Source of the DNA: Ignavibacteriota bacterium
Lineage (GTDB): Bacteria > Bacteroidota > Ignavibacteria > Kapaibacteriales > UBA2268
Direction: 5' to 3'
DNA: 64,000 nucleotides
Assembly: GCA_020437395.1 (NCBI GenBank)
Contig: JAGQWJ010000006.1
Coordinates: forward strand, 1 to 64,000
A model generated the notes under the pieces. It saw only the letters and a program-made list of their open reading frames with translations. It did no database searches and was not told the origin of the DNA. Below, piece after piece: positions 44,367-49,044 of the stretch. The first letter of the stretch is position 1, and each line of letters begins with the position of its first letter. Made by a program: the position numbers and the translations under genes.

Positions 44367-45737
44367 TTATTGTTCCACACCGATTGCATACAATAATTCT
44401 CTTTTTGCTTTGAAATAATTATATGCTGCATTAACTTTATTCAATTGCGAATTAATAAATTGTGTATTCGATTTTTGTAGTTCTAGAAGTGTTGCTGCTC
44501 CAACTCTATATCTCTCTTTTGTACTTTCATTATTTTTAAGTGAAGACTGATATGATTTTTCAGATACTTGTAGTTGCTTTTGTGATATTTCAAGATTCAA
44601 AAGAGTAGTCTTTACTTCATTTCTTACTCTATTCTCCAATCTTTGTTTTTCTATTTCTGCTTGTTTTAGTTGCAACTCAGCATTTTGAACTTGTTGATCA
44701 GTCCTAAAATTATTAAAAATTGGGATATTCAGATTTAGTCCTACGGCAAAGTTACCTCTTGTATTAAATTCTGTAATCTCAGTGTTAGCCCATGTCCAAC
44801 CAGTGGAAGCTGATATATTAGGAAAATAGCTTCCCTCTACAGCTTTTTTGGCAGATTTAGCTGCGTTGCCACTCATATCGTAAGATTTTATATCATATCT
44901 ATTGTTCAAAGCTTTTCTAATTAACTCTCTTTCGTCATTGTGATTATTATAAAAACTATCTACATCCTTTTGTGTTACTTCCGAAGGAATACTATTTACA
45001 TCGAATTTTACATCTAAGTCAGGTGAAAGTCCCATTAATATCAGAAGATTTGCCTTGGAGTTGAATTGATTATTTTCTGCTGTTAATAATTCATATTCCA
45101 AATTACCGAGCTCTGCTTCCTGCGAGTATATTACTGGTAGAGCTGTAACCCCTGCCTTATATTGAGCTTTCATTTTTTCTAAGTCTATTTTACCAACTTC
45201 AATATTCTCTTTTCTAATTCTTACAATCTGAGAATTTCTTATTACTTCCGTAAACGCCCTATATATCTGTATTTTAATATCTCTTTTTAGTTGTTCCAAA
45301 TTGAATTTAACAGATTCTAGATTGTCCTTTGATGAAGAATAATTATACTCACGAGCGAAACCGTCAAAAAGAGTTAAACGAGCACCAGTACTTGCGTTAT
45401 ATCGGTTTGGATTTTGATTTGATTGGATTACCCTATCACCAAATACTAAAGATTGACTTAAATTGTTAAGTTGTCGATTATAGCCAATGTTTGCTGAAAT
45501 CGTCGGCAAATACTCACCGAAAGCACTTCTAAGTCCAGCTTCTGCTACATTTACTCTTTCTTCACTTATTAATAAATCAAAATTCTTTTCTAATGCTATA
45601 TTAATACATTCTTGTAAAGTAAGTGTTGCACCAGGTCCTGATATTTGTGAGATTAGACTAAAAGGAATAAATAAAAAGAGTAATATAAACTTCATCAATT
45701 CTGCCATATATTTTTTTACTGCTATTACGTATTTCAT
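44367..45737 (-). CDS. TolC-family outer-membrane channel
   Basis: A TolC-like protein of up to 456 residues, with the repeated helical hairpins of the family (LTLQECINIALEKNFDLLISEERV... and TLLELQKSNTQFINSQLNKVNAAYNYFKAKRELLYAIG). It forms the exit duct for the ABC pump. The signal peptide begins at an internal methionine, most naturally at 45695 (MKFILLFLFIPFSLISQ) or 45707; the ATG at 45737 would add a 14-residue lead. No Shine-Dalgarno decides. Confidence 0.92.
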   Translation of the reverse strand: MKYVIAVKKYMAELMKFILLFLFIPFSLISQISGPGATLTLQECINIALEKNFDLLISEERVNVAEAGLRSAFGEYLPTISANIGYNRQLNNLSQSLVFGDRVIQSNQNPNRYNASTGARLTLFDGFAREYNYSSSKDNLESVKFNLEQLKRDIKIQIYRAFTEVIRNSQIVRIRKENIEVGKIDLEKMKAQYKAGVTALPVIYSQEAELGNLEYELLTAENNQFNSKANLLILMGLSPDLDVKFDVNSIPSEVTQKDVDSFYNNHNDERELIRKALNNRYDIKSYDMSGNAAKSAKKAVEGSYFPNISASTGWTWANTEITEFNTRGNFAVGLNLNIPIFNNFRTDQQVQNAELQLKQAEIEKQRLENRVRNEVKTTLLNLEISQKQLQVSEKSYQSSLKNNESTKERYRVGAATLLELQKSNTQFINSQLNKVNAAYNYFKAKRELLYAIGVEQ

Positions 45738-45755: not shown

Positions 45756-47177
45756 TTATCTTGGTGTATATCTCTTCAAAGTAGAAGATTGGCCATTTTT
45801 CTCAATAAGTTGTATTTCTATACTATTTATAGGTTTGTCAAGTCTTTCACTTTCAAATGTTTGGAATAGAAAGCCATCATCATAGTAACTTTTTCCAATG
45901 ATATCACTAAATTTCAAATTAGCACTATTTTTCACTTTCATTACATAGTTTTTACCTTTTTGTAAACTAAAAGACTTAGTTTTAATTAGTATTCTGTTGT
46001 CTTTTATTTCTATATACTCTACAACTGGTTTAGGAGTTCTTTTAATCAACAATTGGTAACTATCTAATCTTTTATTTTCGATGTACCTAGTAAGAGTCAA
46101 ATTCGAACCTAACATTTCTTCGGTTGGAGTGAAACTGAATTGACTATTATTGAATCTTTTCTCATAGTTATTATCAGATTTTATTACACTGTATGAACTA
46201 AGAGTTGTACTTGATTCTAACTTTGTATTAATATTATAACTTTCACCTACATACATAACATCAGGAATATTTGGGGCTACTCTCGGAGAAGGTATTACCA
46301 AAAAGTCAAAAGAAAACTCAGAGTTATCTACTTTTCTTTTTATGGAAACATTCACTTTCATTGTGTCATAAGTAGGTGACATACCAGAAAATACAAAATA
46401 GTTTCCTTCAGAAGATTCGAACTTTGCTGTTCCACCTAATAAAGAGTCACCTTCAATTCTTACTTTAGGAGGCCCAACCAAATCATCAATTGAACTAATA
46501 TTATAAATACGTACAAAGTTTTTCCATTCATTATCAGCAAATGTTATAATTGGATTTCTACTAACTTTTGCATCCATTTCTGATAGATTAGTAGGTAATG
46601 AAAGAGGAGTATTAAAAAATAAAAAATCATTATTCAGTGAATCGTTCTGATTTGATACCAAATCTTCTTCTGTAACTTGATTTAAAAATAAGGAGTTCAA
46701 TGTAAACTGTGTTGAGGAAGTTTTAGAATGACCATTTTTTTCAATTATAGCTGTCAATTTAACTAAATAAGTTGAGTTGTAATCAAAATTAAAATCCGGA
46801 TTCCATCTGAAATCAATATAATTATCTTGTAAATTCTCGGTTATCTTAAATTGTTCTTTTGAATTATTTAATTCATTGATTTCTACTGTTTCTCCCCTGT
46901 TTACATCACTTATTGTGTATGTAAAATCAATATTATCATATTTACCATCGAAAAATATCTTGTTAACGGAATCAAATCTAACAATTCTATTAGTTCCATT
47001 CTTTTTTAACATTCTCAGATTTAGAACCGTTTTTTCAGGGACTAAGCGTATATCAATTCTAGAAGTGCTATTATCAACATCAACCTTTTTCTTACTATCA
47101 GGTAGAATTAATATAAGAGCAGCAAGATAAAGAATAAAATATATTTCTACTTTAGTTCTTTTTTTCTTTTGTGTCAT
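45756..47177 (-). CDS. GldM/PorM-like single-helix periplasmic motor partner (divergent)
   Basis: A 473-residue protein with one N-terminal helix (about 10-26) after a basic tail, then an all-beta periplasmic region of probable Ig-like domains. The start KKRTKVEIYFILYLAALILIL can be laid over the GldM start, with R7 on the arginine that in GldM meets the GldL glutamate. IPSPRVAPNIPDVMYVGE (about 280-297) resembles a domain linker. It lacks the helical D1 domain of true GldM and is about 50 residues shorter. It overlaps the GldL-like gene by 26 bases, in the GldL-then-GldM order. Sequence similarity outside the helix is not evident, so this call is inference; otherwise it is an unrecognised membrane-anchored protein. 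Confidence 0.5.
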   Translation of the reverse strand: MTQKKKRTKVEIYFILYLAALILILPDSKKKVDVDNSTSRIDIRLVPEKTVLNLRMLKKNGTNRIVRFDSVNKIFFDGKYDNIDFTYTISDVNRGETVEINELNNSKEQFKITENLQDNYIDFRWNPDFNFDYNSTYLVKLTAIIEKNGHSKTSSTQFTLNSLFLNQVTEEDLVSNQNDSLNNDFLFFNTPLSLPTNLSEMDAKVSRNPIITFADNEWKNFVRIYNISSIDDLVGPPKVRIEGDSLLGGTAKFESSEGNYFVFSGMSPTYDTMKVNVSIKRKVDNSEFSFDFLVIPSPRVAPNIPDVMYVGESYNINTKLESSTTLSSYSVIKSDNNYEKRFNNSQFSFTPTEEMLGSNLTLTRYIENKRLDSYQLLIKRTPKPVVEYIEIKDNRILIKTKSFSLQKGKNYVMKVKNSANLKFSDIIGKSYYDDGFLFQTFESERLDKPINSIEIQLIEKNGQSSTLKRYTPR

Positions 47178-47955
47178 TATCTCTGACTCTTTCGATTAGC
47201 AAATTTTCTAATTCTTTTCTTATCTCAAATCTAATATCTTTTTCTCTTATGCTCTTAGTTGACTCAGATAATATTTCTATCTGTTCCTTTAAACTACTAA
47301 GTTGTTCGTTAGTTCGTTTTATATTGATGACGAACTCATCTGAAGGTGAAACAGCTTTTGAAATATTATCTGTAGCTTTAGCTAATTGATTAATTAATTC
47401 TGATTGATTAATATTGAAATTCTTTAGCTCAAGACTAATATCTTCTAGTTTATTAACTGCATTTGCAAAATCAGTCCCAATTTCACCTATTTCATGAATT
47501 AAGATGCTTTCTTCTGATTCTTTCTCATCAATAATTAAGTCTTCATCAGGAGAAAAAAGCATCACTATAAATATTAACAGCAACATACTTGCTTCGAATA
47601 TTATACTTGCTATAACAAGCTCAGTAGATATTGCGTCAGAAAATTTTCTTACACCTATCAAAACAAGCAATATAGCTGCTCCAAAATATACGAATGAATT
47701 AATTGTAGAATAAAAATGCCTATTTACAACTTCTTCTATCCAAAGCGTAGTCCCCTTCCAAATACCAAGTCTATGTAATATTATAGTATCTGTTTTTACG
47801 AATTTGCTGGGGTTTTTTTCAAAAACACAAACTTTCCAACATATAATAAGAATCATTAATCCAGAAAGTTCATTTTCATATTTTAACTTTTGGTATAGTT
47901 CGTTTAAGAATTTTCTCCCTTCAAGTGAGGAAAGTGTTTCTAATTTTTTTTCCAT
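47152..47955 (-). CDS. GldL/PorL-like two-helix motor protein (divergent)
   Basis: A 267-residue protein with a cytoplasmic N-terminal part (about 1-85), helix 1 (87-103, FGAAILLVLIGVRKF), helix 2 (112-134) with an intramembrane glutamate E121 in IIFEASMLLLIF, then FSPDED and a long coiled-coil-like tail (about 155-255). GldL has the same plan: GAA at the start of helix 1, a glutamate in helix 2 needed for proton-driven rotation, then a proline and acidic residues and a helical tail. The N-terminal extension is unlike GldL. It follows the LptF/G gene by 3 bases. This family call is inference from pattern, not from a search. Confidence 0.5.
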   Translation of the reverse strand: MEKKLETLSSLEGRKFLNELYQKLKYENELSGLMILIICWKVCVFEKNPSKFVKTDTIILHRLGIWKGTTLWIEEVVNRHFYSTINSFVYFGAAILLVLIGVRKFSDAISTELVIASIIFEASMLLLIFIVMLFSPDEDLIIDEKESEESILIHEIGEIGTDFANAVNKLEDISLELKNFNINQSELINQLAKATDNISKAVSPSDEFVINIKRTNEQLSSLKEQIEILSESTKSIREKDIRFEIRKELENLLIERVRDNDTKEKKN

Positions 47956-47958
47956 TAT

Positions 47959-49044
47959 TTATGTTTTTGTTTTAATTAAGTTTATGATACCAACTACAAA
48001 AAACAAGCCATTTGCAAACCAACCAGCAACAATTGGTTGCAAGCCAGTCCCTAATACAACTGCTTGGCTTACTTTCGTAAATATTAAATATAAAAATGAT
48101 ATGACCAAAGCTGCTCCAATTTGAACAGCAATGCCACCTTTCTTCTTAACTGATGCAAAAGGAACACCAAATAAAACAACTATTATATTAGCAATAGGGA
48201 AAGCATATTGACCGTAATAATCAGTCATTTCTAGATCTACATTCTTACCCCCATCCTTCAACAATGAAAGATATGATCTTAACTCATCGAAAGTCATTTC
48301 ATCAGTTGATCTTTTTAAATCGACTATTTTTTCGTGTGTTAGAACTAAGTCTATTCTCAAGGAATCATATTTTTCAACTGACTCTATATTTTCTATTGTA
48401 AATTTACGAGTTAATACATCTTCTAACAACCAATTCTTAGATACAGTATCCCAGGTTATTGACTTAGCTTCAATTGTTTTTAATAATCGGGGGGATTTTA
48501 TATCCGTAAAATATTCAATTCCAATATTGAATCCTTTTTTTTGATCACTTCTATAAGATTTCATGTGTAAGTTAGCAGTAGGAGACTCTCTGAAATATAA
48601 ATCATATATAGAACCAATACTGCTGCCCTTGTTCATATATTCTCTTTCTATGTCATTTTTGGCAATATTTGCCTTCGGTACAATCCATCCATTGAAATAT
48701 AGATGTAAACCACTAACTAATATACTTAATAGCATTAGAGGTGCCATGAATCTATATAGACTAATTCCACCAGATTTTATAGCAGTAATTTCATTTAAGC
48801 CAGATAATCGACCAACGGTAAACAATGTAGAAAGGAGCATCGCTACCGGAATTAATAGTTTTAGAATTTCTGGGAAAAAATAAAAATAGTATTCTGCTAT
48901 TTTCATTATTCCCATCCCATTATCAAGAAAATCCTCTAAATTTTCAATCATATCTACTATTAAAAAAATAGTATATAGTGCAATGAAAGAAAAAATCAAA
49001 GTCGTAATGAATGATTTTATTATATACCTATCTAATATTCTCAT
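47959..49044 (-). CDS. LptF/LptG family LPS export permease
   Basis: A 361-residue YjgP/YjgQ permease: helices at about 13-32, 50-72, 97-117, a periplasmic jellyroll (about 125-265), then three helices at the end. DRYIIKSFITTLIFSF and GLNEITAIKSGGISLYR are family signatures. It extracts LPS from the inner membrane with LptB. Only one permease of the F/G pair is here and lptC is 20 kb away. It overlaps the flippase stop by 4 bases. Confidence 0.9.
   Translation of the reverse strand: MRILDRYIIKSFITTLIFSFIALYTIFLIVDMIENLEDFLDNGMGIMKIAEYYFYFFPEILKLLIPVAMLLSTLFTVGRLSGLNEITAIKSGGISLYRFMAPLMLLSILVSGLHLYFNGWIVPKANIAKNDIEREYMNKGSSIGSIYDLYFRESPTANLHMKSYRSDQKKGFNIGIEYFTDIKSPRLLKTIEAKSITWDTVSKNWLLEDVLTRKFTIENIESVEKYDSLRIDLVLTHEKIVDLKRSTDEMTFDELRSYLSLLKDGGKNVDLEMTDYYGQYAFPIANIIVVLFGVPFASVKKKGGIAVQIGAALVISFLYLIFTKVSQAVVLGTGLQPIVAGWFANGLFFVVGIINLIKTKT

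Follow-up and report, generated by a model that had tools for sequence, protein, structure and literature searches.

The overlapping genes GL and GM, found on the minus strand of the window (the whole stretch of DNA analysed here, 64,000 nucleotides from a member of the Kapaibacteriales), encode the best candidate for a motor that is otherwise apparently missing from these bacteria. We consider it likely, with a probability of about three quarters, that the pair is remotely homologous to GldL/GldM (PorL/PorM), the proton-driven rotary motor of the type 9 secretion system (T9SS), and energises the T9SS of Kapabacteria, where canonical GldL, GldM and GldN are missing. T9SS has been studied almost exclusively where gldKLMN is present, and our literature search found no paper describing a T9SS motor in the Kapabacteria lineage. 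An entire, poorly known order, probably together with other members of its class, possesses the translocon without known motor genes. What, then, can drive it? The pair is a specific and testable candidate. The first of the two genes, GL, has the following features.

47152..47955, minus strand: GL, a 267-aa candidate GldL-like ring subunit with a transmembrane (TM) hairpin and a long helical cytoplasmic tail (ORF; profile match to the GldL hairpin; AlphaFold2, AF2)
47641..47712, minus strand: GL TM1, residues 82-105, with invariant Y90, G92 and A93 (Y-x-G-A) (AF2 helix and invariant columns)
47557..47625, minus strand: GL TM2, residues 111-133 (AF2 helix)
47593..47595, minus strand: codon of GL E121, the invariant TM2 glutamate aligned with GldL E49 (61/61 sequences; hhalign)
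47161..47514, minus strand: GL cytoplasmic helices, residues 148-265, coiled-coil-like (AF2; profile matches solely of coiled-coil type)

The AF2 model of GL (mean pLDDT 79.8) has helices at residues 82-105 and 111-133, forming the TM hairpin with E121 inside the second helix, followed by those at 148-202 and 206-265. E121 is invariant in all 61 GL-family sequences, as are Y90, G92 and A93. Direct searches of Pfam, NCBIfam and PDB sequences with GL returned coiled-coil noise alone, and GL stays below the cut-off of the curated GldL model TIGR03513, above which none of 80 genomes of the order scores. Profile comparison nevertheless supports GL as a remote homologue of GldL via the hairpin. When GL was aligned with 17 canonical GldLs by hhalign, the probability was 87.7 (E 3.4e-6) and E121 fell opposite E49. 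The GL hairpin alone scored 31.2 against GldL, and none of 300 column shuffles preserving hydrophobic (composition) class was as good (mean 12.0, SD 2.7, maximum 29.7). If the hairpins of GL, its paralogues and its Ignavibacterial relatives are pooled into one family, the score becomes 34.4, with a maximum of 18.6 in 200 shuffles. An HMM of this hairpin family, run over 3806 ORFs, ranks canonical GldLs right after its own members, with the top GldL outranking all unrelated ORFs, and in the reverse search a GldL HMM likewise places the GL family directly after the GldLs. Taken singly, the Ignavibacterial GL gives a borderline result (3/150 shuffles as good) and paralogue B, described below, is not significantly similar to GldL (25/200 as good). 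Comparison of folds did not single out GldL: Foldseek returned 62 matches to the GL model, among them the PorL/GldL chains 7sat_D, 7sat_C and 7sau_C, all with poor E-values, and the Z of 5.6 between GL and GldL/PorL is no higher than that of unrelated hairpins (Z about 5-7).

GL and GldL/PorL (TIGR03513; PDB 7SAT, 7SAU, 7SAX) have in common a two-helix TM hairpin with a glutamate in TM2 (E49 corresponding to E121), a G-A-A/S motif in TM1 with a basic residue at its end, a helical cytoplasmic tail, and a gene directly upstream of that of the axle. In contrast, GL carries about 60-80 extra N-terminal residues, its TM2 is about one turn longer, the curated model does not recognise it, and its gene is not in a gldKLMN cluster but among different neighbours, GldN being below cut-off in the order sample. 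In GldL, E49 is strictly conserved and needed for secretion, while E59 is needed for gliding and not for secretion (PMC8986121). The GL position aligned with E59 has no acidic counterpart and is serine or threonine in 59/61 sequences.

The partner gene, whose ORF overlaps that of GL by 26 bp on the same strand, is laid out as follows.

45756..47177, minus strand: GM, a 473-aa candidate GldM-like axle/shaft with a single TM segment and four all-beta periplasmic domains (ORF; profile match to GldM D2-D3; AF2)
47157..47159, minus strand: GM R7, basic residue ahead of the TM segment (R 41, K 13 of 57)
47100..47150, minus strand: GM TM segment, residues 10-26, starting with an invariant acidic E/D11 (conservation, n=57)
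46680..47054, minus strand: GM D1, residues 42-166, an Ig-like beta sandwich (AF2 strands; Ig variable domains match residues 42-165 at Z about 10)
46287..46586, minus strand: GM D2, residues 198-297, aligned with GldM D2 (AF2; hhalign, 0/120 shuffles as good)
46026..46286, minus strand: GM D3, residues 298-384, aligned with GldM D3 (AF2; hhalign)
45759..46025, minus strand: GM D4, residues 385-473, C-terminal beta domain (AF2; assigned by position, with no profile match to GldM D4)

The AF2 model of GM (mean pLDDT 83.5) contains one helix (10-23) and then nearly all strands; the borders of the four domains are our own division of this model. Direct searches of Pfam, NCBIfam and PDB sequences gave nothing of note, the fold search gave matches of a generic Ig/cadherin kind, neither GldM nor PorM being among those listed, and GM lies below the cut-off of the curated GldM model TIGR03517, above which no protein of the sampled order genomes was found. 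Full-length hhalign between GM and GldM is at noise level. The match emerged once both proteins were restricted to their beta domains: GM(198-473) against GldM(200-513) scored 32.3, and none of 120 shuffles was as good (14.7 +/- 2.4, maximum 25.3). It is collinear over 158 columns, GM 212-387 against GldM 247-413, and the beta-domain scores of 29.7-31.8 exceed the maximum of 20.6 for 37 real unrelated families. GldM has been divided into a helical D1 (32-232), D2 (233-320), D3 (321-405) and D4 (406-513) (PMC5790014). The aligned part corresponds to D2-D3 of this map, so that GM appears to retain the four-domain plan with an all-beta D1 replacing the all-helical, five-helix D1 of GldM. These comparisons support GM as a remote homologue of GldM via D2-D3, on weaker evidence than that for GL. 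Since both proteins fall below the curated definitions, we do not assign them to the GldL and GldM families. PF19578 was also considered and is not a GldL/GldM family.

GM and GldM/PorM (TIGR03517) are alike in their single N-terminal TM following basic residues, in their four periplasmic domains, and in D2-D3, where profiles are similar and domain borders match. They differ in the TM itself, whose sequence is not significantly similar in the two (43/150 shuffles as good), and in gldN, which neither adjoins GM nor occurs in the genome. Several residues at the TM are strongly conserved in GM: Y13, F14, L16 and Y17 are each present in 57/57 sequences, and position 11 is acidic in all 57 (E 55, D 2). 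This strict acid at the start of the helix (residue 11, window 47145-47147) is absent from canonical GldM. In placement it resembles the aspartate of MotB, ExbD and TolR. Position 7 carries a basic residue in 54/57 sequences (R 41, K 13), and GldM has R9 before its TM, in a region that cannot be aligned with that of GM.

The initial annotation of this DNA, made by reading the sequence, had described GL as two helices with E121 in the second and a helical tail, and GM as one helix followed by an all-beta periplasmic region; the ORFs and the models agree with this. Its view that the two form a divergent GldL/GldM-like pair gains profile evidence for both partners, through the GL hairpin and GM D2-D3, though the curated models of those families are not passed. 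It had also placed an RxK motif with R7 before the GM helix. What is conserved there is a positive charge and not a strict arginine, as position 7 may be R or K.

How widely is the pair kept? Of 80 related genomes belonging to 10 families, all have GL and 78 have GM, and GL was found in 119/123 genomes of the order. At all 66 loci where both genes were detected, they are adjacent and on the same strand. Conservation over 10 families and 45 genera argues that the ORFs are not there by chance. Named relatives of the pair are Kapaibacterium/Ignavibacteria MAGs, and in a sample of 198 genomes of the phylum the hairpin family is confined to the class of the window (27 genomes). A 768-aa fused frame in one genome (G294) is an artefact, in which a run of N joins the frames.

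The same order has the T9SS translocon, SprA, and the shuttle, PorV, almost everywhere. SprA was found in 122/123 of its genomes (here at G000:C50:28830-35330) and the PorV family in 122/122, the genome of the window included. One genome with the pair has no SprA match, and as this draft is only 88% complete, we take the gap as missing sequence. GldN (TIGR03523) is not above cut-off in any sampled genome of the order; the lone match in the genome of the window, at 23 bits far under the cut-off, belongs to an outer-membrane-barrel-like ORF. It is to be noted that T9SS and the pair are both near-universal in the order, and therefore their co-occurrence there, taken alone, is no proof of a link. 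The argument for T9SS is built on the missing canonical motor and on linkage to PorU, seen mostly through a paralogue of GL.

Genomes of the order as a rule carry two further hairpin proteins, B and C. B has about 445 aa and, as read from its sequence, four TM; in 12/14 genomes its neighbour is a PorU-like C25 protein, and it matches no curated family. In the genome of the window, B is a 443-aa protein (G000:C103:68247-69575; L062:6248-7576) on the same contig, about 20 kb off and outside the window, with a Y-x-GAA / TM-glutamate hairpin as in GL, and its gene is directly upstream of a PorU-like C25 gene. Matches of the PorU-like proteins to the PorU/PorU2 models stay under the curated cut-off. 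The pair itself stands together with a PorU-like gene at a single locus, L145 (genome G052), in the order LptG-GL-GM-B-PorU. C, with about 311-325 aa, four TM and a short tail, occurs in almost every genome of the order (for example L257:5020-5994, in G000:C73, and L073:9083-10015).

With SprA and PorV throughout the order, no canonical GldL, GldM or GldN, and a GL paralogue beside a PorU-like gene, the role of a T9SS motor fits. This had been proposed as a lineage-specific role in the initial annotation, together with the absence of gldN, which holds. Our searches found neither a canonical GldL, GldM or GldN in this genome nor, apart from the incomplete draft, a genome having the pair without SprA. 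By analogy with GldLM, TM hairpins of GL would form a ring around two GM TM helices. E121, in the place of GldL E49, may be protonated and deprotonated, paired with the positive charge before the GM helix, and thereby drive relative rotation, and the four-domain periplasmic shaft of GM would transmit it to the SprA/PorV/PorU machinery of the outer membrane. The 5:2 stoichiometry, the use of protons, the rotation and the physical coupling to SprA are all inferred from that analogy. If GL and GM are indeed this motor, they would tell us which parts are essential (the TM hairpin, one glutamate, the D2-D3 shaft) and which are replaceable (D1, the TM sequence, GldN), and would connect GldLM with acidic-axle motors. 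They also give annotators a profile for motors that current models miss.

Other roles can be postulated for the pair, and one comes from its neighbours in the window.

47959..49044, minus strand: LptF/LptG-family permease, upstream of GL (PF03739, 3e-75)
44367..45737, minus strand: TolC-type outer-membrane efflux protein (OEP), downstream of GM (PF02321, 7.9e-59)

Judged by their sequences, the ORFs beyond the TolC gene encode an RDD protein, a membrane-fusion protein, an ABC ATPase and two FtsX/MacB-type permeases, so the pair does stand between an LptF/G permease and a TolC-ABC pump, as first annotated. The further suggestion that a new motor is re-used here for LPS or glycan export found no support, and we regard it as highly improbable. 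The window has LptG directly upstream of GL, as do about 29 of 77 loci, and flippase-like and heparinase-like genes are neighbours at some; however, the TolC neighbour is downstream in about 14 loci, the pair elsewhere lies among unrelated genes, and its conservation is far wider than the LptG linkage. The LPS-operon setting is lineage-specific. As it is limited to part of the order, the LPS context is not a functional constant. In addition, known Lpt export draws its energy from a dedicated ABC ATPase. The pair might instead be a motor of the Tol/Ton/Mot type (MotA/ExbB with MotB/ExbD family) that serves the envelope in a way not connected with T9SS. Such a 5:2 motor (MotAB, ExbBD, TolQR) would share the presumed ring-plus-axle layout, the acid at the axle TM and, by sequence reading, the four-TM, MotA-like layout of B and C, the invariant E/D11 being reminiscent of the Asp of ExbD/TolR/MotB. 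But 35 GL and 33 GM members gave no reported MotA_ExbB, ExbD or MotB match in Pfam at E<=1, while GldL and GldM profiles do match them, and this origin seems improbable to us.

A closer competitor accepts a GldLM-type motor and assigns it to a different task in the envelope, for instance surface motility or movement of adhesins, with B as the main driver of T9SS. Each genome indeed has three hairpin proteins, and it is B that adjoins the PorU-like gene, GL-GM being usually elsewhere. Against it, the GM search finds one GM-type axle gene here and in most genomes, and none adjoins B; the L145 operon joins B, GL-GM and PorU; and the residue specific for gliding in GldL (E59; PMC8986121) has no acidic equivalent in GL. 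We therefore think this division of labour unlikely, and prefer GL-GM as the T9SS motor. A more elaborate form of the preferred reading is that a new rotary-motor architecture runs the Kapabacterial T9SS: several ring subunits (the 2-TM GL and the 4-TM B and C), each with a TM glutamate, would surround one axle, GM, which has its own TM acid, so that ring and axle would both be protonatable, and the Ig-like D1 would be a coupling element replacing the helical D1. We offer this as a tentative proposal, and doubt that all of it will prove correct.

Outside the order the picture is more varied. In the phylum sample, canonical GldM was found in 51 genomes and SprA in 154; the large family that lacks SprA is also devoid of canonical GldM and of the hairpin family. 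Outside the order, many genomes with SprA likewise have no canonical GldM and no member of the hairpin family; thus other unrecognised T9SS motors probably exist. One 100% complete genome (G081) has canonical GldM and GldN with no SprA match. Ignavibacterial mini-pairs, in other families of the class (L203-L208, L258-L265), consist of a GL-like hairpin protein of about 175-215 aa followed by a GM-like single-TM protein of about 200 aa, sometimes about 440-450 aa. The TM of these GM-like proteins resembles that of GM (YFVLY motif; probability 93, 0/150 shuffles as good), and the periplasmic part of the 200-aa partners would be far shorter than that of GldM. Finally, a contig labelled Desulfobulbaceae (L134, JAGXRP010000077.1) carries a complete Kapabacterial LptG-GL-GM-TolC-MacB operon and probably comes from a mislabelled or contaminated MAG.
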